Source: Burkholderiales bacterium (GTDB taxonomy: Bacteria > Pseudomonadota > Gammaproteobacteria > Burkholderiales > Burkholderiaceae_C). From it: a stretch of DNA of 55,693 nt. Positions 22,851-37,935 of the stretch are shown in pieces. The number at the start of each line of letters is the position of its first letter. Position 1 is the first letter of the stretch. The stretch spans positions 1 to 55,693 of the forward strand of contig CANGHK010000034.1 of the NCBI GenBank assembly GCA_947453625.1. Direction: 5' to 3'. Under the pieces are notes generated by a model. That model ran no database searches. It was not told the DNA's origin and was given only the letters and a program-made list of their open reading frames with translations. The position numbers and the translations under genes are program-made.

Positions 22851-23858
22851 TCAGTCCAGCGTCGCCCCCGACGCCTTGACCGTCCTGGCCCACTTGTCGA
22901 CTTCGCCCTTCAGGAAGCCGCCGAAGGCCTCGGGCGTGTCCCACGACGCGGCGAAGCCCTGGGCGCTGAACTTCTCCTTGACCTGCGGCAACTGCATCGC
23001 CCTCTTCAGTTCCTCGCTCAGGCGGGCGATCACCGCGGGCGGGGTGCCGGCCGGGGCCAGCAAGCCGTTCCAGGCGAACACCGAATAGCCTGGCAAGCCG
23101 GACTCGGCGACGGTCGGCAGGTCGGGTGCGGCGGGTGAGCGCAGCGGGCTGGTCACAGCCAGCGCCTTCAATTTCCCCGCCTTCACGAAAGGCATCGCCG
23201 ACAGCATCGTGTCGAACATCAGCGGCACCTGGCCGCCGATCACGTCGGTCAGCGCCGGCGCGCTGCCTTTGTAGGGCACATGCGCCAGCTTGATGCCGGC
23301 CATCGCGTTGAACAACTCGCCCGACAGGTGGGTGGACTGGCCGTTGCCCGAGGAGGCGAAGTTCAGCGTGTCGGGCTTGGCCTTGGCCAGCGCGATCAGT
23401 TCGCGCACGCTGTTGGCGGGCAAGCCCGGCGTGGCCACCAGCACCAGCGGGCCCTGCGTCAGCAGCGTGACCGGCGCGAAATCCTTGACCACGTCGTAGC
23501 CGAGGTTCTTGAACAGCGTCCTGTTGATCGCATGCGCGGTCGTCGCCACCAGCAGCGTGTAGCCGTCGGCCGGCGCGCGGGCCACTGCCTCGGCGCCGAT
23601 GTTTCCGCCGGCGCCGGCCCGGTTGTCGATCACGAATTGCTGGCCGGTCGCCTCCGAAACCTGCTGGAACACGACCCGCGCGACGATGTCGGTCGGCCCG
23701 CCCGGCGGGTAGGGCACGATCACCCGGACCGGCCTGGCCGGGTAGGCCGCCGGGTTGGCCGCCGGGTTGGCGGTCTGGTTGGCGGCAATTTGAGCCAGCG
23801 CGGGAAGGCCGGCTGCCGCGAGCAGCAACGCCCCGGCCAAGGACCTGAATCGGGTCAT
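22851..23858 (-). CDS. Bug/TctC-family periplasmic solute receptor (1)
   Basis: 335 residues. A signal peptide (MTRFRSLAGALLLAAAGLPALAQ) is followed by a short Asn-Pro-Ala-Ala duplication and then the family start YPARPVRVIVPYPPGGPTDIVAR; further motifs FVIDNRAGAGGNIGAEAVA, LAHVPYKGSAPALTDVIGGQV. Binds a small carboxylate or similar ligand in the periplasm. The start at 23858 is chosen for GGAGAG upstream and a proper signal peptide; another ATG 18 nt earlier overlaps the previous stop. There is no TctA/TctB membrane pair in the window, so this is an orphan receptor, as in Bordetella and Cupriavidus. Last gene of the large catabolic operon. Confidence 0.9.
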   Translation of the reverse strand: MTRFRSLAGALLLAAAGLPALAQIAANQTANPAANPAAYPARPVRVIVPYPPGGPTDIVARVVFQQVSEATGQQFVIDNRAGAGGNIGAEAVARAPADGYTLLVATTAHAINRTLFKNLGYDVVKDFAPVTLLTQGPLVLVATPGLPANSVRELIALAKAKPDTLNFASSGNGQSTHLSGELFNAMAGIKLAHVPYKGSAPALTDVIGGQVPLMFDTMLSAMPFVKAGKLKALAVTSPLRSPAAPDLPTVAESGLPGYSVFAWNGLLAPAGTPPAVIARLSEELKRAMQLPQVKEKFSAQGFAASWDTPEAFGGFLKGEVDKWARTVKASGATLD

Positions 23859-23872
23859 TCGACTCTCCGGTG

Positions 23873-24874
23873 TCATTCCAGCTTCACGCCGGTGGCTGCG
23901 GCCACCCGGGCCCATTTCTGCAATTCGGCGCTGATGACCTGGGTGAACTGCTCGGGCGTGCCGCCTGCCGGCTCGGCGCCCTGGTCCAGGAACAGCTTCT
24001 CGACCTCGGGCAGTTTCAGGATCGCCGACACCTGGCGCTGCAGCAGCTCGACGATGGCCTTGGGTGTGCCGGCGGGCGCCAGCATGCCGAACCAGGCCGA
24101 CGACTCATAGCCCGGCACGCCGGCCTCGGCCATCGTCGGGATCTCCGGCGCGCCGGGCCAGCGCCTGGCGGTCGTCACCGCCAGCGCGCGGATCTTGCCT
24201 GCGCGGATATGGTTGATCGACGACGGCAGGTTGTCGAAGCCGACCTGGATCTGCCCGCCCATCAAGTCGATCAGCATCGGGCCACCGCCTTTGTAGGGCA
24301 CATGCACCAGGTCGACCTGGGCCAGGGTCTTCAACAACTCGCCGCTCATGTGCGGCGAGCCGCCCAGGCTGGTCGAGCCGAAGTTGATCGTGCCCGGCTT
24401 GGCCCGGGCCGCCGCCAGCAGCTCGGCCACGCTCTTGATCGGGACCTGGGTGTTGGCGACAAGCACATTGGGCGTGGTCGCCACCAGCGTGATCGGCGCG
24501 AAATCCTTGATCGCGTCGTAGGGCGCCGGCTTTTGCAGCACCGGCAGGATGCCGTGGGTGGCGATGGACGCGAACACCAGCGTGTAGCCGTCGGGTGCCG
24601 AGCGCGCGACCGCCTGGGCCCCGATCACGCCGCCAGCGCCAGCCCGGTTCTCGATCACCACGGCCTGCTTCAAGCGCTCGGCCAGGCGCGGCGCTATCGC
24701 GCGCGCCAGCAGGTCGGTCGTGCCGCCCGGCGGGTAGGGCACGACCAGGCGGACAGGCTTGTCGGGGTAGTCGGCGGCGGCAGCCCGTGCCGGCGTCAAG
24801 GCCAGCGCCAGCGGGACCGCCGCGCCGCACATCCAGCTCAGCCAGCCCAGCCAGGCTCGGCGCATCGGTGTCAT
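23873..24874 (-). CDS. Bug/TctC-family periplasmic solute receptor (2)
   Basis: 333 residues with signal peptide ([25 protein letters not shown]) and the family pattern [71 protein letters not shown]. Paralogous to the following receptor but clearly diverged, so the pair may bind different ligands or stages of one pathway. GGGAG lies 8 nt upstream of ATG 24874. It follows the SDR gene by 22 nt and precedes receptor 1 by 14 nt. Confidence 0.9.
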
Positions 24875-24896
24875 GGTCGCATCTCCCGGCGCGGGG

Positions 24897-25985
24897 TCAA
24901 CGCGGCAGCAGGCGTTCGGCCTGCATCCGCGCCAGCCAATGGTGTAGCGAATCTTCGGTGTCCTCGCAATCCGCAAAGCCATGCTGGCGCAGCTTGATCG
25001 AGCTCAGCACCGAGTTGGCTGGCTGGGCCAGGCCATGGGCCAGCGCGCGATCGGTGAACTGCCAGGAACTGCCTATCATCTGCGCCAGGCTCAGCGGCCG
25101 CAGGCCATGCTTGTCGACGATGCGCTGCCAGACCGCCTCCAAGGCCGGCATCTGGCTCGTCAGTTCCAGCGGCTCGTCCTCGCCCACCGCCATGCCGAAG
25201 CGCTGCGCGATCGACGACCAGAGGTCTTGCCAGACCAGCATGTCGCCGTTGACCACGTTGTAGGTCTCGTTGGCGGCGATCTCGTGCGTGGCGGCGAACT
25301 CGGCGGCGCGGGCGATCAGCCGGCTGTCGCTGGCGGCGTTGACGCAGCGCCCACCGCCCGGGAATTTCAGCGGCTGGCCCAGCTCGCGCTGCAGCGCCGC
25401 GTAAGCGCCTATGGCCGCGACCGCGTTCATCGGGCTGCCTATCGCATAGCCGAAGATCAGCTGCGGGCGCAGCACCGTGAAGGTCCAGGCCGCATGCGGC
25501 TGGCGCTGGCGCAGCAGGTCTTCCTGCAGCCAGTAGAAATTCTCATGCGCATGGCGCGGCCAGCGCTCCTTGGCCGGCACCGGCGCCGGCGTCACATGGC
25601 CGCCGTAAGCCTTGGTGCCCTGCATCAGCGTGATGTGGCGCAGGCCTTTGGCGGCCGGTTGCAGCGCATCGAGCAGGTTGCGCAGCATCGCTTCGTTGAC
25701 CGCCATCTGGCGTGGGTCGCGCCAGCCCGCCACCAGTTCGGGCAACTCGTAGAGCGCGGCAAACATCACATGCGTGACCTCGCTCAAGTGGGGCGCGGCA
25801 GCGGCACAGGCCGCGGCATCGGTCAGGTCCAGCGCGACATGGTGCACGCCGTCGGGCAGCGGCGATGGGCGGCGCGACAAGGCCAGCACCTGCCAGTCGG
25901 GCAGCGCCGCGAAATGCTCGACGGCGGCAGCGCCGACCACGCCGCTGGCGCCGGCGATCAGCAGGGTGTGCTTCTTGCGCGTCAT
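24897..25985 (-). CDS. SDR-family reductase, PRISE-like
   Basis: 362 residues. N-terminal Rossmann motif [13 protein letters not shown] after a beta strand ([10 protein letters not shown]) fits atypical/extended SDRs, and the phrase [13 protein letters not shown] holds the Tyr of the NFYxxED signature known from progesterone 5-beta-reductase/iridoid synthase-like (PRISE) enzymes. These reduce activated C=C bonds of enones or handle terpenoid aldehydes with NADPH. The start overlaps the stop of the AtuA small-subunit gene (ATGA). In context, a reductive step on an unsaturated intermediate is likely, substrate unknown. Confidence 0.82.
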
Positions 25986-26359
25986 GACGCGACCGCCTCG
26001 GCCGGGCGCAGCAGGTGGGCGCCGTGCAGCTTGGCACGCAGCGCCTCGGGCACCTCGAGCTCGAAGCCGAGCACCGCGGCCGACAGCGCCTTGCCGTAGT
26101 TGTCCAGGCACAGGCTGCGCGAGACACCCCCGCCCAGCGCGCCGTGGCAGACGAAGTTCATCGCCTCCAGGTTGTCGACCTCGTAGCGCAAGACCTCGCC
26201 CTTGATCACGCCGCGGTAGAAGGCCTTGAAACGCTCGGCCGTCAGCTGCGCCTTGAGCAGCGGGTAGAACTCGGGCTCGTAGGCGAAGACGGCGATGTTC
26301 GAGGTGTTGCCCTTGTCACCGGAGCGGGTGTGGGCCAGGTGCTGGAGTTTGACTTGCAT
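25982..26359 (-). CDS. AtuA-related small protein (C-terminal domain of DUF1446 enzymes)
   Basis: 125 residues: LQHLAHTRSGDKGNTSNIAVFAY is the hallmark of the AtuA C-terminal domain, normally fused to the large domain in AtuA of Pseudomonas. Here it is a separate gene starting 2 nt after the large-subunit gene, so the two products presumably form one enzyme. AtuA belongs to the citronellol/geraniol (acyclic terpene) utilisation cluster, with no defined reaction. The stop overlaps the SDR start. Confidence 0.88.
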   Translation of the reverse strand: MQVKLQHLAHTRSGDKGNTSNIAVFAYEPEFYPLLKAQLTAERFKAFYRGVIKGEVLRYEVDNLEAMNFVCHGALGGGVSRSLCLDNYGKALSAAVLGFELEVPEALRAKLHGAHLLRPAEAVAS

Positions 26360-26361
26360 GC

Positions 26362-27717
26362 TCAGCTTTCAAAGTAGGTGATGGAGGCCGGCACCTGCTC
26401 GCGCGGCACCAGCGACGACCAGACGCCTATCACCTCGCGGGTGCGGTCGGCATGCGGCACGCGCTTGCCGGTGTGGGCGATGCCCGACACCGCCATGCCG
26501 TCGACCTCGCGCCCGACCTTGACCGCCTCCTCGCGGGTGGCGGTGCGGGCCGCGACGCGCACCGCGATCTCGTAGGGCTCGGGCGCGTCGTCGGGCGTGG
26601 CGGCGCCGTGGATCGCGTTCAGGCCCAGGAAGTCGACGCGGTACTCTTCGGCCTTCAGGCCGACGATGCGGAATCGCTCTTCCAGGATCTTCTTGGCCAG
26701 CTGGGCCCGCCGCAGCGCGCCCGGTCCGGCGTAGAAGAACATGTCCTCGCCGATGAAGCCCTCGGTACAGCCTATCGAGACCTTCAGCGTCGGCGTGCGC
26801 GGCTTGCCGCCGATGTTCGTGACGCGAACGCGGTCCGGGCCGATCTGTTCGATCCTGGCGCTGGTGAAGTCGACCACCACGTCGGGCGTCAGGTAGTTGG
26901 CGGGGTCGTGCACCTCGTAGAGCATCTGCTCCTTGACGGTCTGCAGCGTCACCGCGCCGCCCGTGCCGGCCACCTTGGTGATCACCGCGCTGCCGTCCTC
27001 GTCGACCTCGGCGATCGGGAAACCGAAGTTCCAGGGTTCGGGCACATCCTTGAAACCGGGGTCGGAGAAGTAGCCGCCGGTGACCTGCGCGCCGCATTCC
27101 AGCAAATGGCCCAGCCCCATGCCCTGGCCCAGCTTGACATGGTCCAGCGGGTCCCAGCCAAACTCGTACATCATCGGTGCCATGAAGATGGACGGGTCGG
27201 CGACGCGGCCGGTGACGACGATGCGGGCGCCCGCCTTCAAGGCCTCGACGATGGGTTCGGCGCCGAGGTAGACCTCGGCCGAGATCAGCGTGGGTTTGAG
27301 CGTCGAAGTCGGCAGGCCGTTCTCGAGGATTCGGTCGGTGAGCTCCAGCACCCGGTCGGTGATCAGCGCGCCGTTGACCGACGCGACCTTGACCCCCTTG
27401 TGCCCAAGCTCGCGCAGCCAATGGACGATGCGCCTGGCGGCGGCGTCGGGGTTGATCCAGCCCTGGTTGCTGATGATCCGGGTACCGTTGCGCAGGCAGG
27501 CCGGCAGCACCGCGCGCATGCGGTCGTCGAGGTAGGTGTCGTAGCCCTCGAAGCTCGGGTCGCGGCGGGCCCGCACCTGCGCGGCCGACACCGTGGCTTC
27601 GGCCATGGTCTCGAAACACAGGTAGTCGAGCGCGCCATGTTCGGCACTCAGCGCGGCGGGTTCGACCCTATCCCCCCACCAGGCGGCACCCGCGCCTATG
27701 CGTATCGTTCTTGTCAT
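26362..27717 (-). CDS. AtuA-family (DUF1446) large protein
   Basis: 451 residues matching the large N-terminal domain of acyclic-terpene-utilisation protein AtuA: RIGAGAAWWGDRVEPA, LDYLCFETMAEATVS, GTRIISNQGWINPDAA, GARIVVTGRVADPS, CGAQVTGGYFSDPG. The biochemical activity of the family is not established; it occurs in clusters with acyl-CoA enzymes. The start at 27717 overlaps the acyl-CoA ligase stop by one base (TGATG). Split from its C-terminal domain, which is the next gene. Confidence 0.88.
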   Translation of the reverse strand: MTRTIRIGAGAAWWGDRVEPAALSAEHGALDYLCFETMAEATVSAAQVRARRDPSFEGYDTYLDDRMRAVLPACLRNGTRIISNQGWINPDAAARRIVHWLRELGHKGVKVASVNGALITDRVLELTDRILENGLPTSTLKPTLISAEVYLGAEPIVEALKAGARIVVTGRVADPSIFMAPMMYEFGWDPLDHVKLGQGMGLGHLLECGAQVTGGYFSDPGFKDVPEPWNFGFPIAEVDEDGSAVITKVAGTGGAVTLQTVKEQMLYEVHDPANYLTPDVVVDFTSARIEQIGPDRVRVTNIGGKPRTPTLKVSIGCTEGFIGEDMFFYAGPGALRRAQLAKKILEERFRIVGLKAEEYRVDFLGLNAIHGAATPDDAPEPYEIAVRVAARTATREEAVKVGREVDGMAVSGIAHTGKRVPHADRTREVIGVWSSLVPREQVPASITYFES

Positions 27718-29888
27718 CAGGATTCCTCTGTTGCGTCTGCTGCTGCGGCGGCGGCGGCCCCAGCGGAAATTCGGACTTCCTGGAACACCACCGCGTCGAC
27801 CGCCAGGCAGCCCTCGCCCCGCGCGCCGACGATCACCGGGTTGATGTCGAGCTGGGTGATGCCCAGCGCGTCCTTGGCCATCAGCTCGCCCACCGCCACC
27901 ACGCTGCGGCAGAAGGCGGCGACATCGAGCGGCGGCTCGCCACGCACGCCGTCCAGCAGCGGCGCGATGCGCAGGCGGCGCAAGGCGCGCTCGACCTGGG
28001 CGCCGTCGAAGGGCGGCAGCAGCAGTTGCACATCGGGCATCGCCTCGACGTACTTGCCGCCGTCACCCACCAGCACGACCGGGCCGAACACCGGGTCGTG
28101 CCGCGCACCGATCATCAGCTCGCGGCGGCCGCGCACCATTTCGGCCACGATCACGCCGCTGAGGTGGACGCCAGCGGCGTCGGCCGCGAGTGTCACCTCG
28201 CGCCAGGCCGCGGCCACCGAGGCGGCGTCGCCCAGCCCCACCCGCACCAGCCCGAGCTCGGACTTGTGCGAGGCGTCGGCGGTGCAGCCCTTGACGACCA
28301 CGGTCTGGCCGCCCAGCACCGCGAGGGCCGCGAAGGCCGCGAAGGCCGCCACGGCCTCGGCCTCGGTCTGGCACAGCTGGTGCCTGGCCACCGTCACGCC
28401 GTGGCCGGCCAGCAGCGCCAGGCTGGACGCCTCGTCGAGCATGGCCGCCGGCCCGGCCCGCCGCGGCCGGCGCGGTGCCGGCAGATCGCGCGCGGCGGCC
28501 GCCGCCTGCAGTTCGGCATGCGACAGGAACTGGCCTAGCGCGCGCACCGCTTCGCCCTCGGTCGGGTAGACCGGCAGGCCCAGCACCTTGAAGCAGTCGG
28601 ACACGCTGCGCTGCGGTGCGGCCACCACCAGCGGCTTGCCGGTCTGCGCGGCAAAGCGCGCGGTGTCGCTGGCGAAAGCGTCGACGTCGTAGCCGGCACC
28701 GGCCACCGCGATGCCGATCAAAAAGGCATCGGCGGCCGGGTCGCGCGCGATCGGCGGCAGGATGGCGCCGAACAAGCGGCTGTTGCTGAGCAGCGCGGCG
28801 GTGATGTCGACCGGGTTGGTGGTGGTCGCGAAGCCCGGCAGGATGGCCTTGAGTTCGTCCTGGGTGCTGGCCAGCAGCGGCTCCAGCGGCATGTTGGCCA
28901 GGCTGGCCGCGTCGGCCGTCAACACGCACACCGCGCCCGAGTTGCTGATCGCCACCAGCCGACGGCCGGCCGGCCGCCAGCCCTTCAGGTAGAGCTGTGC
29001 CGAGTCGACCATCTCGGCCATGCTCTGCACGCGCCAGATGCCATGCTCGGCCAGAAACGCGTCGACGGCGCGGTCCTCGTTGGCCAGCGCGCCGGTGTGC
29101 GATTGCGCCGCCTGCTGGCCCGCCGCGCTGCGGCCGGACTTGAGCACGACGATGGGCAGCTGGCGCTGGCGCGCGACACGCGCCGCCTCGGCCAGGTTCC
29201 AGGGGTCGGGGATGCCTTCGAGGTAGAGCAGCAGCAGCTTGAGCGCGGGGTCCTCGGCGACGACGGTGGCGAGCTCGCAGACCGTGACGTCGCAGTCGTT
29301 GCCGGTCGAATGCGCATGCCGCACCCCTATGCCCTGGGCCCGCAGCAGGCCATAGGGCACCACGCCCATCGCGCCGCTCTGGCTGATGATGCCGACCGGG
29401 CCGTCGGCGGGCGCGACCTCGGTGAACATGGTCGAGAAGCTGGCCACCGCGCCGCTGCCGAAGTTGGCCAGCCCCTGCGAGTTGGGCCCGACCACGCGCA
29501 TGCCGCGCTGGCGGGCGCGGGCGGCCATCGCCATCTCACGCGACTTGCCGTCGGGGTCGGTCTCGCCGAAGCCCGAACTCATCACGATGCACAGCGCCAC
29601 CCCGGCCAGGCCGCAGGCGTCGACCGCGGCCAAAGCCTGATCGCCCGCCACCGCGACGATCACCACATCGGGTGTTTCAGGCAGCGCCTGAAGGTCGGGG
29701 TAGCAGCGCAGGCCCTGCACCTCGTCGCGGGTCGGGTTGATCGGGTAGACCGCGCCTTTGAAGCCGAAGCGGGCCAGGTAGGCCAGCGGCCGGCCGCCGA
29801 TCTTGTGCGGATTCTCGGAAGCGCCGATCACGGCGATGGAGCGCGGTGCCAGCGCAAGGCGCAGCGCGCTTCGGGGGTCAGCAGACAT
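27717..29888 (-). CDS. ADP-forming acyl-CoA synthetase (acetate--CoA ligase family, alpha-beta fusion)
   Basis: 723 residues. CoA-binding Rossmann start SIAVIGASENPHKIGGRPL (about 15-35), succinyl-CoA-ligase-like domains with GIISQSGAMGVVPYG and the active-site histidine motif SHTGALA (His264), and a C-terminal ATP-grasp domain from about 500 (LLAGHGVTVARHQLC, VVKGCTADASHKSELGLVRVGL, ELMIGARHDPVFGPVVLVGDGG). It activates a carboxylic acid with ATP and CoA, giving ADP and phosphate. The start at ATG 29888 overlaps the DUF35 gene end by 11 nt. Probably the first committed CoA step of the pathway; the substrate acid is unknown. Confidence 0.9.
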   Translation of the reverse strand: MSADPRSALRLALAPRSIAVIGASENPHKIGGRPLAYLARFGFKGAVYPINPTRDEVQGLRCYPDLQALPETPDVVIVAVAGDQALAAVDACGLAGVALCIVMSSGFGETDPDGKSREMAMAARARQRGMRVVGPNSQGLANFGSGAVASFSTMFTEVAPADGPVGIISQSGAMGVVPYGLLRAQGIGVRHAHSTGNDCDVTVCELATVVAEDPALKLLLLYLEGIPDPWNLAEAARVARQRQLPIVVLKSGRSAAGQQAAQSHTGALANEDRAVDAFLAEHGIWRVQSMAEMVDSAQLYLKGWRPAGRRLVAISNSGAVCVLTADAASLANMPLEPLLASTQDELKAILPGFATTTNPVDITAALLSNSRLFGAILPPIARDPAADAFLIGIAVAGAGYDVDAFASDTARFAAQTGKPLVVAAPQRSVSDCFKVLGLPVYPTEGEAVRALGQFLSHAELQAAAAARDLPAPRRPRRAGPAAMLDEASSLALLAGHGVTVARHQLCQTEAEAVAAFAAFAALAVLGGQTVVVKGCTADASHKSELGLVRVGLGDAASVAAAWREVTLAADAAGVHLSGVIVAEMVRGRRELMIGARHDPVFGPVVLVGDGGKYVEAMPDVQLLLPPFDGAQVERALRRLRIAPLLDGVRGEPPLDVAAFCRSVVAVGELMAKDALGITQLDINPVIVGARGEGCLAVDAVVFQEVRISAGAAAAAAADATEES

Positions 29889-30252
29889 CAGGAACCTTGT
29901 TGAAGTAGGGGAGCGGGCGGCCGGCCAGGGTCTCGATGCGGCCAATGACGGCGTCACCGATGCGCAGCGACGGGTCGCCATGGGCCATGACCCGGAAACC
30001 TTCGGCCAGGTCGACCAGCACGATGGCGTAGGGCGTGATGGCACGGAATTCATCGCTGGGCGCGCGTTGCACCAGCGTGTGGGCATGCACCGTGCCGAGG
30101 CCACCGGAGACGCTTTGCCGCGGCTCGGCACCACCGCAAGCCGGGCAGAAGCTGCGCTGGAAGTAGAAGACATGGCCGCAGGACTGGCAATGCTGAAAGA
30201 CGATGCGGTCGCCGCCGCGGGTCCAGTCGGACGAAACCAGGGTGTCACTCAT
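29878..30252 (-). CDS. DUF35 zinc-ribbon/OB-fold protein, partner of the thiolase-like protein
   Basis: 124 residues. The N-terminal rubredoxin-like zinc ribbon has C22, C25, C36, C39 (HCQSCGHVFYFQRSFCPACG) and the OB-fold follows (GTVHAHTLV, ITPYAIVLVDLAEGFRVMAH). DUF35 proteins bind SCP2-type thiolases and related aldolases (Ltp2, archaeal HMG-CoA synthase complex) and bring the CoA substrate. ATG 30252 with GGGAG upstream is preferred over longer starts. It lies 43 nt after the thiolase-like gene and is almost certainly its partner. Confidence 0.88.
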   Translation of the reverse strand: MSDTLVSSDWTRGGDRIVFQHCQSCGHVFYFQRSFCPACGGAEPRQSVSGGLGTVHAHTLVQRAPSDEFRAITPYAIVLVDLAEGFRVMAHGDPSLRIGDAVIGRIETLAGRPLPYFNKVPDVC

Positions 30253-30295
30253 TCGGCACGCTCCCTGGCCCAACGCGAACGGTGAAGGGGCCGCG

Positions 30296-31429
30296 TCATG
30301 CGGACTCCAGCACCAAGCTGACATGCGACGACAGCACGCCGCCGTCGCCGTGCAGCAGCGCGACGCCCGCGCGCCGGGCTTGCCGGACGCCGGCGCGGCC
30401 GGTCATCTGCAGATGGGTTTCGGCCAGGTGCGCCATCGCGCCGCCCACGCCGCAGTGGCCATACGACAGCAGACCGCCATGCAGGTTGAGCGGCAGCGCG
30501 CCGGTGGCGTCGAAATACCCCTCGCGCGCCAGCGCACCGGCCCGGCCGCGCGGCGCCAACCCGATCTCCTCGAGCAGCATCGTCAGGGTGATCGTGAAAC
30601 TGTCGTAGATCGCCGCGTATTCGACCTCGGCCAAGCCGCGGCCGGCCTCGCTGAGCGCGCGCGCCGCACAGGCCCCGGCGCCGACCTGGGTCAGGCTGGC
30701 CGCGGCGCTGATGTGCTGCGCGTTGTGCTGCTGCGTGGCCGACCGGATGCGCACCGGGTGGGGGCCTTCGGGCGCGGCCGAGACCACGAACGCGCAGCCG
30801 CCATCGGAGACCGGGCAGCAATCGAGCATCTTCAGCGGAGAGGCAATCGAGCGCGAGGCCAGCACGTCCTGCACGCTGATGGGTGCGCGGAACTGCGCGC
30901 CCTCGTGCAGCGCCGCATGGCGGCGCATCAGCACCGCCATTTCCGCCAGGTCGGCCTCGGTGCCGCCGAACTCGTGCAGGTAGCGCGAGGCCACCAGACC
31001 GTAGTAGGCGGGAATCGTCGCCCCCAGCGGCACCTCGTAGACCGGGTGGCCGACCTGGGCCAGCACCTGGATGGACGAGTCGCGGCTCTGCCCCGTCATC
31101 CGGTTCTCGGCCCCGACCACCAGCACCCGCCTGGCCGCGCCCGAGGCGATCAGCTGGTGCGCCAGCATCACCAGCGCGAAGCCGGTCGCCCCGCCCAGCT
31201 GCACCGCATGGGCGTAGCGCGGATGCAGACCGTAGTGCTCGGCGAAGACGGTGGACAGCATCAGGTGCGGCAGCGTCGTCGAATAACCGCAGACCAGGCC
31301 GTCGATGTCGCCGCGCGCAAATCCCCCGTCGGCCAGCGCCAGGTCGGTGGCCTCGGTCATCAAGTCCAGCGTGCCGCGGCCCGCGTGCCGGCCGTAACGG
31401 GTCAGGCCGCTGGCGGTGACGAAACTCAT
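30296..31429 (-). CDS. Thiolase-like protein (SCP2-thiolase/Ltp2 type) without the nucleophilic cysteine
   Basis: 377 residues. SCP2-thiolase landmarks are present: LVVGAENRM, MLDCCPVSDGGCA (202-212), AAIYDSFTITLTMLLEEIG (273-290, Tyr275), NLHGGLLSYGHCGVGGAMAH (315-334, His325). At the position of the usual nucleophile, where thiolases read (N)GCATG, this protein reads LGGATG (78-83), so Cys is replaced by Gly80. Thiolytic cleavage by the normal route is therefore doubtful. With the adjoining DUF35 partner it resembles Ltp2-type retro-aldolases, which do not use cysteine. The start overlaps the iclR stop (ATGA). Assignment to the superfamily is firm; reaction inferred. Confidence 0.87.
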   Translation of the reverse strand: MSFVTASGLTRYGRHAGRGTLDLMTEATDLALADGGFARGDIDGLVCGYSTTLPHLMLSTVFAEHYGLHPRYAHAVQLGGATGFALVMLAHQLIASGAARRVLVVGAENRMTGQSRDSSIQVLAQVGHPVYEVPLGATIPAYYGLVASRYLHEFGGTEADLAEMAVLMRRHAALHEGAQFRAPISVQDVLASRSIASPLKMLDCCPVSDGGCAFVVSAAPEGPHPVRIRSATQQHNAQHISAAASLTQVGAGACAARALSEAGRGLAEVEYAAIYDSFTITLTMLLEEIGLAPRGRAGALAREGYFDATGALPLNLHGGLLSYGHCGVGGAMAHLAETHLQMTGRAGVRQARRAGVALLHGDGGVLSSHVSLVLESA

Positions 31430-32196
31430 GCCGTCTTCCTCTGGGCGTACTGCGATGACAGCTCGGTGCCCGCCTTCAACAAGGCCGGAGCCAGCAGCGA
31501 CAGCCGGCTCGAAATGCGCTGGGTCAGCGCGGCGATGCTGATCGCGCCGACCGGCTTGCCGTCGCTGCCGAGTATGGGCACGCCTATGCCGCCCATCTGG
31601 TCGACCACCACGTCCAGCAGCACCGCGTAGCCGCGCTCGCGGGCCAGGGCGATCTCGCGCTTCAGCAGCTCGCGGGTGATGCGCGGGTAACGCTTCTTGA
31701 ACACCGGCGCCAGCAGGTTCAGCACCGTGTCCACCTCGTCGTCGGGCAGCGACGCCAGCAGCGCCAGGCTGCCGGCACCGGCTCCCAGCGGGCGCCGGCT
31801 GCCGAGGTCGAGGTAGTTGGCGCGAATCGGGAAGCTGCCGAACTCGCGGTCCACGCACACCGATTCGAGGCCATGGCGGGTGGACAGCAGCAGCGTGTCG
31901 CCCGACAGCGCCGCCAGCCGCACCAGCGCGGGCCTTGCCCGGTCGCGCAGGTGGTCGCGGCCCTGCATCGCCACCCCCAGCACCAGCGCCTCGTCGCCCA
32001 GTTGGTAGCGTTTGCTGACCGGGTCGCGCTGCACAAAGCCTTCGACGATCAGCGTGTCGAGCAGGCGCAAAGTGGTGGCCTTGTTCAGATCGGCGCCGGC
32101 GCAGAGGTCGACCAGCCGCAGTGGCGTCGGCGTCGAGAGCACGCGCAGGATGCGGCAGACCTTCTGCGCTGAATTGGTCGCCGAGGTCTGGTGCAT
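31426..32196 (-). CDS. IclR-family transcriptional regulator
   Basis: 256 residues: N-terminal winged helix (SAQKVCRILRVLS, LVDLCAGADLNKATTLRLLDTLIVEGFVQRD) and C-terminal effector domain (GDTLLLSTRHGLESVCVDRE, GIGVPILGSDGKPVGAISIAA). It sits inside the catabolic operon, 7 nt after the cyclase gene and ATGA-coupled to the thiolase-like gene, so it is autoregulated if it controls this transcript. A candidate operator is the 17-bp palindrome at 38079-38095 upstream of livJ. The effector is presumably a substrate or acid intermediate. Confidence 0.93.
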   Translation of the reverse strand: MHQTSATNSAQKVCRILRVLSTPTPLRLVDLCAGADLNKATTLRLLDTLIVEGFVQRDPVSKRYQLGDEALVLGVAMQGRDHLRDRARPALVRLAALSGDTLLLSTRHGLESVCVDREFGSFPIRANYLDLGSRRPLGAGAGSLALLASLPDDEVDTVLNLLAPVFKKRYPRITRELLKREIALARERGYAVLLDVVVDQMGGIGVPILGSDGKPVGAISIAALTQRISSRLSLLAPALLKAGTELSSQYAQRKTA

Positions 32197-32203
32197 GAAC
32201 CGG

Positions 32204-33265
32204 TCAGACGGTGGCCACCGGCGTGGTCGGCGATCCGACCGCGCCCGGCAGGCGCAGCGGCGGCGCGGTCAGCAGGAAGCGGCTGCGGCCATGCTGGCGC
32301 AGCCAGGCCGCCAGCGGCGTCAGGTGCCAGATCTCGCCGAGGTGGATGCCGAGCTTGAACAGGCAATGCTCGTGCAGCGGCAGCGCCGCGCAGCAGCCGA
32401 GGTGGCGCAGCGCCGGGTGCGCTTCGACCGCGTAGTTGTCGGCGATCAGCACCGCCAGCCCGCTGTCGGTGATCCACTGCAGCAACTTGCCATCGCGGCC
32501 ATCGAGCACCGCGCCGGTCTGGTCGAGCCGCTCGCCGTCGGGCTCGCCGCGCATGTCGAGCAAGGCCTGGGCAAAGCCGGTGTGCAGGCAGACCATGTCG
32601 CCGGTCTCGACCGTCAGCTGGTCGGCCTCCAGCACCCGCATCAGCGTGTCGTAGCCGACCACGCTGCGGCCAGGGCCCAGATGCGCCTGCAGGTCGATCA
32701 TCACGCCCCGGCCCTGGACGCAACGCTCGGCCATGTTCTCTATGCCCAGCGCCTTGGCCTGGGAGGTGGAGCGCCGGTCGCCGGGGGCAGGCACGCCGGC
32801 GTCACTGGCGTCCTGCGGACCGACCACGTCTTCGCCGGCCCGGTAGCCGTTGTAGTAGACCGCCTCGGCCACGCCGTCGGCGTTGGCGTCGAACAGTTGG
32901 CCGACATGGGCCAGGCTGTCCCACTGCGTCGAGTACTGCAGGTGCATCACCACCAGGTCGTCGCTGATCACGTCGGTCTGCAACACGTCGTCGCTGAACA
33001 GCTGGTAGTTCATGTTCGGCCGGCCGTTGCGCACCGTCGGCCGCAGCACCGGCGGGTGGCGGCGCGGGTTCAGCACGTTGCCGCCGGGGTAGTCCAGCGG
33101 CAGGCTGAGGCAGAAGGTCAGGCCCTCGCGCACTTCGGTCACGGCACGCCGCACGCGCTCGGGCGTCAGCAGGTTGATGCGGCCGTTTTGGTCGTCGGGA
33201 CCGAAGTCGCCCCAGTTCGAGCCCGGCGGGCGCTGTTTCCAGCGAGGGTTCTGTGCGTCAGTCAT
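32204..33265 (-). CDS. Cyclase-family metal hydrolase (kynurenine formamidase-like)
   Basis: 353 residues, cyclase family (PF04199-like). The family phrases WGDFGPDDQNGRINLLTPERV near the N-terminus and YSTQWDSLAHVGQLFD with VYYNGYRAG in the middle belong to a long subgroup; the Asp and His of WDSLAH stand in for the metal-binding HxGTHxD of kynurenine formamidases. Likely hydrolyses an amide, lactone or ring bond of the imported substrate, giving the acid for the CoA ligase (inferred). AAGGAG precedes ATG 33265, which lies 8 nt inside the livF end. Confidence 0.88.
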   Translation of the reverse strand: MTDAQNPRWKQRPPGSNWGDFGPDDQNGRINLLTPERVRRAVTEVREGLTFCLSLPLDYPGGNVLNPRRHPPVLRPTVRNGRPNMNYQLFSDDVLQTDVISDDLVVMHLQYSTQWDSLAHVGQLFDANADGVAEAVYYNGYRAGEDVVGPQDASDAGVPAPGDRRSTSQAKALGIENMAERCVQGRGVMIDLQAHLGPGRSVVGYDTLMRVLEADQLTVETGDMVCLHTGFAQALLDMRGEPDGERLDQTGAVLDGRDGKLLQWITDSGLAVLIADNYAVEAHPALRHLGCCAALPLHEHCLFKLGIHLGEIWHLTPLAAWLRQHGRSRFLLTAPPLRLPGAVGSPTTPVATV

Positions 33266-34022
33266 ACAGCCATCTCCTTGAGGGGGCGGCGCCGCCCAGG
33301 AACACCCGGTGCAGCAGATCGCCTTCGCGCAGTTCATCGGAAAATGCCGCGGCGGCGATGCGGCCGGTCTCGACCAGGTAGCCGTATTGCGCGTGGCGCA
33401 GCGCCTTCTCGACCAGTTGCTCGACGAGCAGGATCGCCAGGCCGCTTGCGCACAAGTCCGAGGCCACCGCCAGGATCCGGTCGATCACGATAGGCGCCAG
33501 GCCGCCCGACGGCTCGTCGAGGATCAGCAGCTTGGGGTCACCGATCACGCCCTGCCCGACCGCCAGGATCTGCTGCTGGCCGCCGGACAGGCGCGAGGCC
33601 ATCTGGTGGCGCTTCTCGGCGAGTTCGGGGAACAGCGTGTAGATGCGGTCGAGCTTGGCGCGGTCGCCGCCCGGGTGACGCGCATAGGTGCCGATCAGCA
33701 GGTTGTCCTCGACCGACAGCGTGTGGAACACGCGGTGGCCTTCGAGCACCTGCACGATGCCGGCCTTGACGATGTCGCGCGGGCTGGCGTGGCTGAGATC
33801 GCGCCCCTCGAAGCGCACCTTGCCCGCCCGCTTGGGCACCAGGCCCGAGACCGCGTGCAGCAGCGTGCTCTTGCCCGCGCCGTTGCGGCCCAGCATCACG
33901 ACGAACTCGCCGGCGCGCACGTCCATCGAGATGCCATGCACCACCTCGGCCTTGCCGTAGGCCACATGCAGGTCGCGCACCTCGAGCAAGGCTTGGGGCG
34001 GACGTTCGCGCGCTGTGCTCAT
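33258..34022 (-). CDS. livF: Branched-chain-type ABC importer ATP-binding protein LivF-like
   Basis: 254 residues: Walker A GRNGAGKST, signature LSGGQQQILAVGQGV, Walker B LLILDEPSGGLAP. The C-terminus carries about 12 extra residues (GGAAPSRRWLYD) that overlap the cyclase gene. Forms the ATPase pair with the LivG-like protein. Systems of this family carry amino acids but also many aromatic acids and amides in Burkholderiales; the catabolic neighbours point to a non-amino-acid substrate here. Confidence 0.9.
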   Translation of the reverse strand: MSTARERPPQALLEVRDLHVAYGKAEVVHGISMDVRAGEFVVMLGRNGAGKSTLLHAVSGLVPKRAGKVRFEGRDLSHASPRDIVKAGIVQVLEGHRVFHTLSVEDNLLIGTYARHPGGDRAKLDRIYTLFPELAEKRHQMASRLSGGQQQILAVGQGVIGDPKLLILDEPSGGLAPIVIDRILAVASDLCASGLAILLVEQLVEKALRHAQYGYLVETGRIAAAAFSDELREGDLLHRVFLGGAAPSRRWLYD

Positions 34023-34025
34023 CGC

Positions 34026-34787
34026 TCAGGCCCCCAGGTAGACACGGATCACTTCCGGGTCGGCGCGCACCTCGTCGGGCGTGCCGTGCTTGATCATCTT
34101 GCCGACGTTCAGCGTCGTCACCCGGTCGCAGACGCGGAACACGAAGTCGGTGTGGTGCTCGACCAGCAGCACGCCGATGCCGGCATCGCGCACGGTGCGG
34201 ATCACGTCGGCCAGGTGCTCGATCTCGTTGCCGGTCAGCCCGCCCGCCGGCTCGTCGAGCAGGATGAAGCGCGGCCGCATCGCCAGGCCGCGGGCGATCT
34301 CGAGGAAGCGCTGTTCGGCATGGTCGAGCAGGTTGGCACGGCGCGCCATCACATGACCGAGACCGATGCCGTGCAGGATCTCGGCCGCCTGCTCGCGCAG
34401 CAGTTGGTCCTCGCGCGCCACATGGCGCAGGCCGAAGGCGGTGGCCAGGAAACCGGCGCGCGCATGCGGCCAGGCGCCGAGCACCGCGTTGTCCAGCACC
34501 GACAGCGTGGGCAACAGCCGCGGCTTCTGGAAGGTGCGCGCCACGCCGATGCGCGCGCGCTGCTGCACCGTGGCCTCGGACAGGGCCTCGGCGCCATGCC
34601 GGATGGCCCCGTCACTGGGTTGGTAATAGCCCGACAGCAGGTTCAGCAGCGTCGTCTTGCCGCTGCCATTCGGGCCGATCAGGCCATGCACCTCGCCCGG
34701 ACGCAGCGTCAGCGAGACATGGTCGAGCGCGCTGATGCCGCCGAACTGCTTGCTGATGTCCAGCGCTTCGAGCGCGGAGCCGCTCAT
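34026..34787 (-). CDS. livG: Branched-chain-type ABC importer ATP-binding protein LivG-like
   Basis: 253 residues: Walker A GPNGSGKTTL, signature region LLDHAEQRFLEIARGLAMRP (no classical SGGQ, as in several LivG relatives), Walker B FILLDEPAGGLTGNE and switch histidine VEHH. The C-terminal GTPDEVRADPEVIRVYLGA is the LivG ending. The ATG at 34787 overlaps the livM stop as ATGA; livF starts 3 nt after it. Part of the livJ-led importer. Confidence 0.92.
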   Translation of the reverse strand: MSGSALEALDISKQFGGISALDHVSLTLRPGEVHGLIGPNGSGKTTLLNLLSGYYQPSDGAIRHGAEALSEATVQQRARIGVARTFQKPRLLPTLSVLDNAVLGAWPHARAGFLATAFGLRHVAREDQLLREQAAEILHGIGLGHVMARRANLLDHAEQRFLEIARGLAMRPRFILLDEPAGGLTGNEIEHLADVIRTVRDAGIGVLLVEHHTDFVFRVCDRVTTLNVGKMIKHGTPDEVRADPEVIRVYLGA

Positions 34788-35776
34788 CGCCGCTCCCCTA
34801 TCGCCCGCGCCAGGCGCGCCAGGTCGGGCGTGATCGCGGCGTGCCGCGTCGGGCGCGGCCGCAGCCGCTCGCCGATCAGCTCGAAGACCCGGCCTATGCC
34901 CTCGGGCACGATCAGCACGACGGCCAGCAGCAACAGGCCGTAGAAGAAGTTGCCGAGCTTGGCCAGCGGCGCCACCAGCTCGGGCAAGGCCGTCAACACC
35001 ACCGTGCCGAGAAAAGGCCCGACGATGCTGCCACGCCCGCCGATGATGATGCAGACGAAGAAGAACAGGCTCAATTCGAAGACGAAGGTGTCGGGCGTGA
35101 TGTAGCTCTGCAGGCTGGCGAACAGCGCCCCGGCCACCCCGGCGGTGACGCCACTGAAGACGAAGACGACCAGCTTGGCGCGGAACAAAGGCACGCCCAC
35201 CGCCTGCGCCGCCACCGGGTTGTCGCGGATGGACATCAGCCCGAGACCCCACATCCGGCGCGCGATGTTCCAGCTCAGCAGCGTCACCCCCAGCGCCAGC
35301 AAGGCGGCCAGGACGTAGAAGCCCTGGGGCGTGTCGAACGGCGGCGGGAACAGCGGGCCGGGCAGGCCGATGCCGCCGCCGGTCAGATCGACTTGCGCCA
35401 GCACCAATTCATTGACGATCAGCGCAAAGGCCATCGTCGCCATCGCGAAGTAGAAGCCCGGCAGACGCAAGGACGGCAGCCCCAGCCCCAGCCCGCACAA
35501 GCCGCCCAGCGCCCCTGCGGCGACCACCGCGACCGCCGGGTGCCAGCCCAGCTTGCCGGCCAGGATCGCGAACACATAGGCGCCGATCGCGAGCAGCCCG
35601 ACATGGCCTATCGACAGCTGGCCGGTGTAGCCCACCACCAGGTTCAGCCCGGCGATCAGGATCCAGTAGACGCAGATCAGCCCCGCCAGATGCAGCTGGT
35701 AGGGGTCGCCGGCCCACCAGGGCAAGGTGGCGGCGAGCAGGCCGCCGAGCACGAGCGAGATCGTCTTGGGGCTCAC
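34784..35776 (-). CDS. livM: Branched-chain-type ABC importer permease LivM-like
   Basis: 330-residue membrane permease with eight to ten hydrophobic segments and the LivM signature phrases GLNLVVGYTGQLSIGHVGLLAIGAYV and IIGGRGSIVGPFLGTVVL. The start is a GTG at 35776 with GGCGGGGTGG upstream; this GTG overlaps the TGA of a 35-codon ORF (35773-35880) as GTGA. Forms the channel with the LivH-like permease. Confidence 0.9.
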   Translation of the reverse strand: MSPKTISLVLGGLLAATLPWWAGDPYQLHLAGLICVYWILIAGLNLVVGYTGQLSIGHVGLLAIGAYVFAILAGKLGWHPAVAVVAAGALGGLCGLGLGLPSLRLPGFYFAMATMAFALIVNELVLAQVDLTGGGIGLPGPLFPPPFDTPQGFYVLAALLALGVTLLSWNIARRMWGLGLMSIRDNPVAAQAVGVPLFRAKLVVFVFSGVTAGVAGALFASLQSYITPDTFVFELSLFFFVCIIIGGRGSIVGPFLGTVVLTALPELVAPLAKLGNFFYGLLLLAVVLIVPEGIGRVFELIGERLRPRPTRHAAITPDLARLARAIGERR

Positions 35777-35880
35777 CGCACCACCCCGCCGAACTGCAGG
35801 AATGGCCGGAATGGCCTAAATGACTCAAATGACTCAAATGACTCAAATGGCCCGTGCGGCCCCGACCCTGAATGCGTCAT
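35773..35880 (-). CDS. Candidate 35-residue small ORF bridging livH and livM
   Basis: Its ATG (35880) overlaps the livH stop as ATGA and its TGA overlaps the livM start as GTGA, so it exactly fills the gap. The peptide begins MTHSGSGPHGP, then has three FES units, two RPF units, and ends LQFGGVVR. It is written by the 9-bp tandem repeat at 35799-35852. I know no family like it. It may be a real small protein, or a translated spacer that lets ribosomes run from livH into livM. No separate ribosome binding site stands out. The open frame and both overlaps are seen; expression is inferred. Confidence 0.45.
   Translation of the reverse strand: MTHSGSGPHGPFESFESFESFRPFRPFLQFGGVVR
35799..35852. 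repeat. 9-bp tandem repeat array between livH and livM
   Basis: Six consecutive 9-bp units on the plus strand: GGAATGGCC twice, TAAATGACT, CAAATGACT twice, CAAATGGCC. The shared core is AATGRCY. Much lower in GC than the surroundings. The unit length being a multiple of three keeps the bridging frame open whatever the copy number. Confidence 0.9.
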
Positions 35881-36737
35881 ACCGGCCTCACGTTCCTGGA
35901 CCCGAGCAAGCCCTCGGGCTTGAGCAGCAGCACGACCATCAGCAGGCCGACCGCGATCGTCTGCTGGTACTCGCCGCCGAACCAGTGGCTGGCGAAGGCG
36001 TTCAGCAAGCCCAGGGCCGCGCCGCCTATCAAGGCGCCGATGTTGCTGCCCAGGCCGCCCACCGCCAGCGCGATGAAGCCGTTCAAGGTCAGCGTCAGGC
36101 CGAGCGCGAAATAGGCGAAGGTCAACTGGCCCGCGGCGAAACCGGCCAGGCCGCCCAGCGCGCCCGACAGCAGGTAGGACATCACCCGGATGCGGTCGGT
36201 AGCCACGCCACGCGCGCGCGCCGCAAACGCATCCTCCGACATCGCCAGAAACAGCTTGCCGTACATCGTGCGGCGGTAGAACAACTCCAGCCCTGCCGCC
36301 ATCAGCAGCGCGATGGCGATCGGCAGCCAGAACTTCTGGTCCAGCGCACCGGCGCCGAAGTCCTGCGGGATCAGCCGCGGGAAGGGCTTGGGCTCGGTGC
36401 CCCACCACAGTCCCACGCCCTGCTGCACCATGGTGGCCAGCGCCAGCGTGCTGAGCAGCCACAGGTGCTCGTCGCTGCGGTTGAGCACGCGGCGGATCGC
36501 GAGCAATTCGGTCACGAAGCCGAACAGCGCACCGGCGGCCACCGCCCCGACCAGGCCAATCGCCCAGTGCAGGTGCAGCGTGGCGACGAAATAGGCGCCG
36601 AACACGCCGCCCAGCATCGCGATGTGGCCGGTCGTCACCGACAGCACCTTGGAGGTCGAGTACATCACGTTGTAGACCAGCGCGACGGCCGCGAACACCA
36701 TGCCTATGGCCAGGCCGGAGACGATGACGGTCAGCAT
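35877..36737 (-). CDS. livH: Branched-chain-type ABC importer permease LivH-like
   Basis: 286-residue inner-membrane permease with about eight hydrophobic segments; family phrases GLAIGMVFAAVALVYNVMYSTSKVLSVTTGHIAML and GGLGSNIGALIGGAALGLLNA. Pairs with LivM. ATG 36737 has only a weak ribosome binding site and follows livJ by 16 nt. The stop overlaps the start of the repeat-encoded small ORF. Confidence 0.9.
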   Translation of the reverse strand: MLTVIVSGLAIGMVFAAVALVYNVMYSTSKVLSVTTGHIAMLGGVFGAYFVATLHLHWAIGLVGAVAAGALFGFVTELLAIRRVLNRSDEHLWLLSTLALATMVQQGVGLWWGTEPKPFPRLIPQDFGAGALDQKFWLPIAIALLMAAGLELFYRRTMYGKLFLAMSEDAFAARARGVATDRIRVMSYLLSGALGGLAGFAAGQLTFAYFALGLTLTLNGFIALAVGGLGSNIGALIGGAALGLLNAFASHWFGGEYQQTIAVGLLMVVLLLKPEGLLGSRNVRPV

Positions 36738-36753
36738 CGCGAGGCGACCGGCT

Positions 36754-37935
36754 TCAACGCGGCGCCAGCTTGAAGCTGCCGTCCTTGAAGGTGTTGGCGA
36801 TGTTCACCGCCATGTTGCTGTCGGGAAAGCCGTTGCGCTCGGTCGCGCTCCACGAGTAGGTGGCGTAGACGCCCTTGAACTCCTGGGTGCCCTCCAGCGC
36901 CTTCTGGATCGCGGCGGGGTCTAGCGAGCCGGCCGTCTTGGCCGCATGCTCGATGATCTTGACCGTGTCGTAGCCCATCGCCACCCACCAGAACAGCACG
37001 TCGATCTCGCCGCCACCCAGCTTGGGGCGCACCTTGTCGACCAGCGCCTGGGTGCGTTCGGGCAACTTGCCGTCGGCGCCGAAAGTGGTGCTGCGGTAGC
37101 CCGAGGCGAAGGTGTTCTCCCAGTACTCGGGCTTGTTCAGCAGTTTGCGGATCTGCGCCGCCATCAAGGCCGGGTGGCCGACGACCGGCACGTTCCAGCC
37201 CATGTCGCCGCGCGCGTTCAGCAGCCGGCCGAGCAGGCCGGTGGCCGCCGACCAGGGCATCACGACATCGGCGCCGGCCGCTCGGGCCTTGTTCATCTCG
37301 TCGCTGAGGTCGGTCTTGTTGGGATCGACCAGCACCACGTAGACCGGCTTGATGCCGGCCTTGTCGAGCATTTCCTGGGCCGTCTTGCCGCTCGCGGTGC
37401 CGTAGCCCGAGGTGTCGGCAATGATCGCGACCTTGGTCTTCTTCAGGGTCTTCAGCGCGTAGTCGTTGGCGGTGGAGATCCACTGCCGGTTGGTGTTGAT
37501 GGCGCGGAAGGCGCGCGGAAACTTGACGGCGTCGGTCAGCTCGTCGATCGAGCCGATCACGATGTTGGGCACGCCGGCGCGCGCCAGGATGGGCGTGGTG
37601 GCCAGGCCCTCGCCGGAATTGACCGGGCCGATCACGAACTGCACCTTGTCGCTGAAGGCCAGCTGCTGGGCGTAGTTGACGGCCTTGGTCGGGTCGCCTG
37701 CGGTGTCGCGGGTCAGCAACTCGATAGGCTTGCCGAGGATGCCGCCGGCCTTGTTGATCTCTTCGACCGCGAGCTGGACGCCCTGGTTTTCGGCGATCGC
37801 CGCCGACGACAGCGGGCCGGTCAAGGACGACAGCCAGCCTATCTTGACGTTCTGCGCAAACGCGCTGAGCGGCGCCGCGGCCAGGCCCGTGACCAGGGAG
37901 AGTTGGAAGGCAAGTCTTGCCAATCGAAACTTCAT
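36754..37935 (-). CDS. livJ: Branched-chain-type ABC importer periplasmic binding protein LivJ-like
   Basis: 393 residues with a Sec signal peptide ending LSAFAQ. Family phrases: VKIGWLSSLTGPLSSAAIAENQGVQLAVEEINKAGGILGKPIELL and VNSGEGLATTPILARAGVP. Delivers the ligand to LivHM. GGAG lies 9 nt upstream of ATG 37935. First gene of the 15-gene catabolic operon, so the signal controlling the pathway should act in the 191-nt region to its right. Confidence 0.92.
   Translation of the reverse strand: MKFRLARLAFQLSLVTGLAAAPLSAFAQNVKIGWLSSLTGPLSSAAIAENQGVQLAVEEINKAGGILGKPIELLTRDTAGDPTKAVNYAQQLAFSDKVQFVIGPVNSGEGLATTPILARAGVPNIVIGSIDELTDAVKFPRAFRAINTNRQWISTANDYALKTLKKTKVAIIADTSGYGTASGKTAQEMLDKAGIKPVYVVLVDPNKTDLSDEMNKARAAGADVVMPWSAATGLLGRLLNARGDMGWNVPVVGHPALMAAQIRKLLNKPEYWENTFASGYRSTTFGADGKLPERTQALVDKVRPKLGGGEIDVLFWWVAMGYDTVKIIEHAAKTAGSLDPAAIQKALEGTQEFKGVYATYSWSATERNGFPDSNMAVNIANTFKDGSFKLAPR

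Follow-up and report, generated by a model that had tools for sequence, protein, structure and literature searches.

Gene content of the operon

We analysed a window of 55,693 nucleotides (nt) from a Burkholderiales bacterium; the window is one entire contig (CANGHK010000034.1, our C34) of assembly GCA_947453625.1, which comprises 5.18 Mb in 127 contigs. Positions 22,851–37,935 hold an operon of 15 minus-strand reading frames (Table 1), all of them intact, with a single stop codon apiece at the end. From livJ to the second Bug gene the intergenic distances are 16, 100, −4, 3, −8, 7, −4, 43, −11, −1, 2, −4, 22 and 14 nt; the sole gap longer than 43 nt, between the LivH and LivM genes, has 100 nt, and the remaining ones range from −11 to 43 nt. 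An earlier sequence-only reading of this stretch had described genes of one direction, with gaps mostly below 45 nt and overlaps of 1–11 nt; apart from the LivH/LivM gap this was borne out, and every gene family that it named was confirmed by Pfam.

By Pfam, the LIV-type importer is complete, with a binding protein, two permeases and two ATPases. Ten of the operon proteins were also scanned with NCBIfam, and no model exceeded its cut-off. We consider it probable that the operon is a catabolic unit with a carbon–carbon lyase of the citramalate lyase (CmlAB) type, and that it acts on a carboxylic acid, with branched or hydroxylated ones the likeliest.

Table 1. Genes of the operon and a candidate operator upstream of it (domain names from Pfam)
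Feature	Position	Strand	Remarks
LivJ periplasmic binding protein, 393 amino acids (aa)	36754..37935	-	Peripla_BP_6 E = 2.7e-57
LivH permease, 286 aa	35877..36737	-	BPD_transp_2
LivM permease, 330 aa	34784..35776	-	BPD_transp_2; preceded by 100-nt gap
LivG ATPase, 253 aa	34026..34787	-	ABC_tran + BCA_ABC_TP_C; ATG at 34787, 4-nt overlap with LivM
LivF ATPase, 254 aa	33258..34022	-	ABC_tran
Cyclase-family PF04199 protein, 353 aa	32204..33265	-	altered metal motif QYSTQWDSLAH
IclR-family regulator, 256 aa	31426..32196	-	HTH_IclR + IclR_C
Thiolase-like protein, 377 aa	30296..31429	-	Thiolase_C_1; no nucleophilic Cys, YDSF motif
DUF35 partner, 124 aa	29878..30252	-	zf-ChsH2 + OB_ChsH2_C; CxxC-x10-CxxC zinc ribbon + OB fold
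ADP-forming acyl-coenzyme A (CoA) ligase, 723 aa	27717..29888	-	CoA_binding_2 + Succ_CoA_lig + ATP-grasp_5; alpha-beta fusion
AtuA, 451 aa, predicted large subunit of CmlA-like lyase	26362..27717	-	PF07287 E = 8.4e-144
AtuA_ferredoxin, 125 aa, predicted CmlB-like small subunit	25982..26359	-	PF23544
PRISE-type short-chain dehydrogenase/reductase (SDR), 362 aa, accessory	24897..25985	-	PF22917
Bug/TctC solute receptor 1, 333 aa	23873..24874	-	PF03401; alternative start 24865
Bug/TctC solute receptor 2, 335 aa	22851..23858	-	PF03401
17-nt perfect palindrome GGTTTGACTGTCAAACC, candidate operator	38079..38095		~150 nt upstream of livJ

AtuA and AtuA_ferredoxin resemble citramalate lyase

The AtuA domain scored 480 bits against a cut-off of 22.8. 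In sequence searches the sole credible solved relative of the protein was 9erq/9evf (E = 0.0018 with the single sequence, 7.5e-8 with a profile), entries titled in the PDB ‘Citramalate lyase, subunit A (cmlA)’ and, for 9evf, ‘Citramalate lyase - ADP - pyruvate complex’. Predicted models of the two proteins, each searched on its own, led to the two subunits of this same enzyme. The AtuA model (mean predicted local distance difference test score, pLDDT, 74.1) matched 9evf_A with a Foldseek E-value of 2.4e-23 and probability 1.00; the next match was at 4.6e-3 and no other fell below 1e-3. For the AtuA_ferredoxin model (pLDDT 88.4) 9evf_B ranked first of 350,542 chains (E = 7.2e-4, probability 1.00, target template modelling score 0.67), followed by a match at 7.1e-3. 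A profile search with the small subunit was discarded; it matched designed proteins, and its alignment held an out-of-frame row (L002).

The same genome encodes two AtuA-AtuA_ferredoxin fusion proteins, of 616 and 603 amino acids, and therefore the two reading frames of the operon probably form one enzyme. The pair is best read as a two-subunit, nucleotide-binding carbon–carbon lyase for a hydroxy acid; cleavage would take place adjacent to the hydroxyl carbon and involve a nucleotide. Since the predicted folds match both CmlAB subunits, cleavage of hydroxy acids, and not specifically of terpenes, is suggested. In the open-access literature we recognised no description of the solved enzyme under the names CmlA, citramalate lyase, DUF4387 or AtuA-family.

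AtuA genes also occur in other settings. A further AtuA-AtuA_ferredoxin pair of the same genome (L087, 7916–12355) lies beside genes for a LysR regulator and a dipeptide-type binding protein; the 19.9-kb stretch around it gave no match to the thiolase-like, DUF35 or ligase genes of the window. A fused AtuA copy (L085, 5264–19197) has among its neighbours genes for an aminotransferase, an alpha/beta hydrolase, Bug and LIV proteins, an AMP-binding ligase, a TetR regulator and an enoyl-CoA hydratase.

The thiolase-like protein and its DUF35 partner

The nearest solved relatives of the thiolase-like protein are 4u4e (named a thiolase), the bile-acid aldolase Sal (9myr) and the lipid-transfer protein 6ok1, which we take to be Ltp2. 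Residue conservation was counted from locus matches of at least 45% identity. The site of the thiolase nucleophilic Cys reads GGATG, and a YDSF motif is present, in all 37 loci covering these sites; His325 and His360 are invariant (38/38), and the four Cys of the DUF35 zinc ribbon are kept in 21 of 21 sequences. The protein is thus probably not a thiolase. As the nucleophilic Cys is missing and YDSF occurs in 37/37 loci, it resembles in sequence the steroid aldolases, and our best guess for the activity of the thiolase-like/DUF35 pair is retro-aldol cleavage.

According to an excerpt of the report on Sal (PMC12329534), this enzyme has Gly at the Cys site, by which its authors excluded thiolysis; its motif is YDCY, that of Ltp2 is YDHF, and replacement of the Cys of YDCY by Ser abolished activity. 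Set against that account, the window protein keeps the Asp and the Tyr, the latter serving as the base, and its third residue is Ser versus Cys in Sal and His in Ltp2. Because Ser follows YD here, and the Cys-to-Ser change kills Sal, the acid must come from elsewhere, perhaps from one of His325 and His360. The earlier description of the protein as Ltp2-like therefore fits the active-site residues GGATG and the Tyr of the YD motif; it does not fit YDSF in place of YDHF.

Conservation of gene neighbourhoods around AtuA

We used AtuA to scan the GTDB genome collection by a pattern-based search, which reaches close relatives only. It returned 235 AtuA relatives, and the best 80, of ∼80–93% identity, were kept; by their record titles these 80 are mostly betaproteobacterial, with some others (among them Skermanella and Aquabacter, presumably alphaproteobacterial). 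The main counts refer to the 48 of the 80 loci whose flanks reach 7.5 kb or more on each side of AtuA; identity thresholds for gene presence were chosen by us. AtuA_ferredoxin was present in 48/48 of these loci, the thiolase-like gene in 27, DUF35 in 27, the ligase in 26, the cyclase in 19, PRISE in 15 and each Liv gene in 14–17, while seven control genes from other parts of the window were found in 0/48. The association of the genes exceeds chance. Among all 80 loci, 38 carry the thiolase-like gene, 37 of these with DUF35 and 36 with the ligase.

The enzyme genes recur around AtuA in changed orders and on changed strands. Importers vary from locus to locus: besides LIV and Bug genes, representatives had dipeptide-type ATP-binding cassette (ABC; L028, L024), TctA (L023), tripartite ATP-independent periplasmic (TRAP; L069) and major facilitator superfamily (MFS; L021) transporters. 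Thus it is the enzymes, more than the importer, that are conserved. The operon does not belong to this genome alone; its building blocks are cassettes that recur in genomes mainly of Betaproteobacteria, with some from other groups. Two are combined here, AtuA-AtuA_ferredoxin-Bug and thiolase-like-DUF35-ligase, the latter often with cyclase and IclR, and both also occur apart.

Additional genes near AtuA, scanned via cluster representatives only, were mainly transporters, regulators and unrelated genes, the exceptions being an AMP-binding ligase cluster in five loci (representative L058), a family III CoA-transferase (L077) and an SDR (L076). Four loci (L028, L042, L055 and L064) come from metagenome-assembled genomes labelled Bordetella parapertussis; these labels look doubtful.

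Co-inheritance across the order

Next to the locus survey stand 120 genomes of the order with completeness of at least 90%, the window genome counted. At E ≤ 1e-60, 34 of them have AtuA-family genes. Orthologues were called at E < 1e-200 for AtuA (13 of the 34 matching genomes), at 57% identity or more for the thiolase-like protein (13 of 19) and at E ≤ 1e-130 for the cyclase (17 of 19), and all 13 ligase matches were accepted, so that AtuA, thiolase-like protein and ligase each count 13 genomes and the cyclase 17. The cut-offs were set after we saw the identity gaps (71% versus 50% for AtuA, 57% versus 44% for the thiolase-like protein). AtuA and the thiolase-like gene share 11 genomes, which span six families (Fisher P = 5e-12, a value that ignores relatedness and is inflated by it). 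The thiolase-like and ligase genome sets are identical, and all 13 members also have the cyclase. In four of the 11 shared genomes (G015, G028, G073 and G115) AtuA and the thiolase-like gene lie on separate contigs. The control gene MdcA, also found in 13 genomes, overlaps the AtuA or thiolase-like set in the window genome only.

PRISE (E ≤ 1e-40) was found in 20 of the 120 genomes, namely in 10 of the 13 thiolase-like genomes, the window genome included, and in 10 of the 107 others. One contig (G099:C1) carries AtuA, thiolase-like and cyclase genes near 2.78 Mb, and the ligase and a PRISE homologue near 1.59 Mb.

For 26 of the 42 AtuA loci with no thiolase-like hit, we searched the whole genome for the thiolase-like gene alone, along with two positive controls, both of which were recovered. 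Isolates with AtuA and no thiolase-like gene include Candidimonas humi, Zwartia panacis, Zwartia hollandica, Pollutimonas subterranea and Aquabacter cavernae. Neither cassette depends strictly on the other; because 14 of the 26 genomes have no thiolase-like gene anywhere at E ≤ 1e-60 (the other 12 have one elsewhere), the AtuA cassette is probably able to act without this enzyme.

Cyclase, PRISE and solute receptors

Metal-dependent hydrolases of PF04199 (kynurenine formamidase type) carry the motif HxGTHxDxPxH, which the window cyclase does not match. All 31 loci covering the motif have QYSTQWDS..H instead, and the nearest solved structure, the uncharacterised 5ibz, has QxSTQWDxxxH. The opening of a ring or an amide, assigned earlier to the cyclase, is doubtful given the altered metal-binding motif of the 31 loci.

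The catalytic residues of PRISE proteins are a Lys and a Tyr; aligned to 5mlh, K125 and Y151 are invariant in 27/27 loci. Among solved structures, plant progesterone 5-beta-reductases come nearest. As only 26 of the 80 AtuA loci carry a PRISE gene, PRISE is accessory. Among the 120 genomes, its matches beyond the window genome reach at most 54% identity.

LivJ is nearest to solved Leu/Ile/Val or amino-acid binders, which gives no ligand clue; the second Bug receptor is nearest to a terephthalate-binding protein and Bug27, which does not fix its ligand.

Transcription and surroundings

A promoter scan of positions 22,400–38,400 showed no sigma-70-like site, and there were about as many terminator-like sites as chance predicts (six found versus 6.1 expected); hence we infer a single transcript for the 15 genes from gene spacing.

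The palindrome upstream of livJ has 0.02 expected occurrences in the window when up to three mismatches are allowed, a figure to be read with its having been noticed after the fact among 20 livJ upstream regions. Similar palindromes lie ∼145–150 nt upstream of livJ in L017 and L026, and both operons have IclR. A 7-bp inverted repeat of some kind occurs in 11 of the 20 regions, which weakens the case; we list the palindrome as a candidate operator, purely as a lead. Three other loci (L048, L060 and L065) have TTCC...GGAA-type palindromes in its place.

Directly upstream of the operon, on the same strand, is a malonate decarboxylase cluster that includes a DctPQM TRAP transporter, with 191 nt from mdcH to livJ; at 38,127–47,257 it comprises alpha, gamma, acyl carrier protein, MdcG and acyltransferase-domain protein genes. 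Homologues of MdcA, MdcE and DctM were found beside AtuA elsewhere in 0/80 loci. A convergent gene for an MFS transporter lies downstream and has its end at 22,802, just beyond the second Bug gene. Farther away, at 848–10,295, a second LIV-type importer is grouped with acetamidase/formamidase (FmdA) and CN_hydrolase proteins, which suggests amide or urea use; within this range a protein that joins leucine-rich repeats to a protein-kinase domain (2022–3320) has a make-up that looks unusual for a bacterium.

Proposed pathway and alternative explanations

Judging by the families, LivJHMGF, and probably also the Bug receptors, would import the acid, and the ADP-forming ligase would convert it to a CoA thioester. 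The missing thiolase residues and the aldolase-like motif point to the thiolase-like/DUF35 complex as the putative agent of a retro-aldol split of a 3-hydroxyacyl-CoA. AtuA/AtuA_ferredoxin may cleave a hydroxy acid to a keto compound and acetate or its activated form; here the predicted fold is matched, while nucleotide use, substrate and products are presumed. PRISE could, as an optional step, use NAD(P)H to reduce substrates that have a conjugated carbonyl. Possible substrates are 3-hydroxy-3-methylglutarate and citramalate. Abscisic acid combines an enone, a tertiary alcohol and a 3-methyl-2-enoic acid; it was set aside, with nothing linking it to these genes.

In this proposal the import and CoA-dependent degradation of the sequence-only reading survive as the best reading of the operon; its ring-opening step is doubtful and its terpene pointer weakly supported. 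Of the terpenoid, branched or alicyclic acid that it suggested, the branched acid is kept, together with a hydroxylated one, as most likely; the terpenoid is weakened by the accessory status of PRISE and by the CmlAB folds. Its statement that no described pathway has this gene set agrees with our finding none in open-access full text (subscription papers aside), in searches only partly aimed at the set; nor did the combination of AtuA, DUF35, thiolase and Bug match anything in that literature.

Several observations weigh against the proposal. AtuA has only 16% identity to CmlA in the fold alignment, so that the two may differ in substrate and in their use of a nucleotide, and the E-value of the small-subunit fold match is modest. 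YDSF is neither YDHF nor YDCY and the Cys-to-Ser variant of Sal, in an excerpt of PMC12329534, is inactive, so that aldolase activity is not assured. By Pfam there is no hydratase, acyl-CoA dehydrogenase or carboxylase among the 15 genes, which bears on the source of the hydroxyacyl-CoA. The post hoc cut-offs and the relatedness behind the Fisher value also count here, as do the 14 genomes, of the 26 tested for lack of a local thiolase-like gene beside AtuA, that have none anywhere at E ≤ 1e-60, and so do the genomes of the order with only one of the two genes: AtuA without the thiolase-like gene in G017 and G106 (2/13), and the reverse in G064 and G100 (2/13).

That the operon serves a terpenoid or alicyclic acid, with AtuA in the role it has in acyclic terpene utilisation and a ring enone as the substrate of PRISE, seems to us unlikely. 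The invariant Lys and Tyr of PRISE and its kinship to progesterone 5-beta-reductases would suit such a pathway, as would the AtuA-like lyases ThnQ and ThnS of anaerobic naphthalene degradation, reported in an excerpt of PMC12016498. It is opposed by the three enzymes just named as lacking from the 15 genes, by the low frequency of PRISE in the 80 loci and its modest identities outside the window genome, and by the TRAP, TctA and Bug genes of related loci, which suit small carboxylates equally.

We give a rather low chance to two unrelated pathways sharing one operon, with AtuA-AtuA_ferredoxin-Bug acting on one acid and cyclase-thiolase-like-DUF35-ligase on another. The cassettes do occur apart, as the 14 genomes without a thiolase-like gene illustrate, and the other split AtuA pair of this genome adjoins a dipeptide-type ABC transporter gene. 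Yet the two co-occur strongly across the order, including on separate contigs, the MdcA control shows no co-occurrence beyond the window genome, and 27 of the 48 full-flank AtuA loci have the thiolase-like gene within the fetched stretch.

It is very improbable that the thiolase-like/DUF35 pair runs synthetically, by acyl transfer or condensation like PhlABC, and that the unit makes a metabolite: PhlC is among the solved relatives (5m3k, E = 9.9e-12) and ADP-forming ligases are reversible in principle, but Sal and 6ok1 are much closer relatives, and a five-gene importer, two receptors and IclR suit uptake and degradation.

Preferring the catabolic unit with a CmlAB-type lyase, we regard the operon as a real, conserved degradation unit; its families are known, their combination is apparently undescribed, and the lyase can be named by type on its predicted fold. 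It is not a new kind of system; the gain is a testable assignment for a poorly named family. Pfam names the AtuA family solely for acyclic terpene utilisation, though its genes are common (34/120 genomes), and the likeness to CmlAB gives this large group a concrete, assayable reaction type; it suggests that many AtuA-family genes need have no tie to terpenes. The gene set, shuffled yet inherited together, suggests an acid from the environment, with a route of breakdown that we did not find in the open-access literature.

More speculatively, we may be looking at a widespread undescribed pathway of Betaproteobacteria and some other Proteobacteria, centred on an ATP- or ADP-linked lyase of the citramalate lyase class that works alone or behind a ligase/YDSF-aldolase cassette. 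If so, AtuA-AtuA_ferredoxin-Bug alone would act on an imported hydroxy acid, the cassette of ligase and YDSF aldolase/DUF35 would extend the lyase to larger branched acids, and YDSF proteins would be a third DUF35-dependent aldolase class beside Sal and Ltp2.

Relation to known systems

The atu pathway differs from the operon in its geranyl-CoA carboxylase, hydratase and acyl-CoA dehydrogenase, none of them found here by Pfam, and the operon has AtuA and AtuA_ferredoxin split into two reading frames. In an excerpt of PMC4847356 AtuA is tentatively listed as an acetate lyase in terpene breakdown. With thnQ/thnS, as tabulated in an excerpt of PMC12016498, the operon shares two adjacent AtuA-like lyase genes in a CoA-dependent pathway; the naphthalene operon has beta-oxidation enzymes not found here, and the likeness is one of description.

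BbsAB, the benzoylsuccinyl-CoA thiolase, is likewise a thiolase-like/DUF35 pair, and its models matched weakly, far under the NCBIfam cut-offs (110.4 versus 750 bits and 19.3 versus 250 bits). BbsB itself has the nucleophile-site Cys that the window protein lacks. The steroid side-chain aldolases Sal-Shy and Ltp2-ChsH2, as far as the excerpt of PMC12329534 describes them, share with the window pair the thiolase fold with no nucleophilic Cys, the YD motif with the catalytic Tyr and a zinc-binding DUF35 partner; the differences are YDSF here versus YDCY or YDHF, the invariant His325 and His360, and the MaoC domain, which Pfam did not find in the 15-gene operon.

DUF1446 is presumably the earlier name of the AtuA family. 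By an excerpt of PMC4682846, E. coli O157:H7 has an AtuA-family (DUF1446) gene adjoining that for methylaspartate ammonia-lyase, and as of 2015 it was unclear what becomes of citramalate there. The ammonia-lyase is not found among the 15 genes here, and the same holds by Pfam for the mutase and mesaconase of glutamate fermentation. With citramalate lyase CmlAB itself identity is low, 16% for subunit A and 20% for B, and the lyase is here coupled to CoA enzymes and importers; shared are the predicted folds of both subunits and, in the profile alignment of the large subunit, the GRxxDP and LYExxDP patches.

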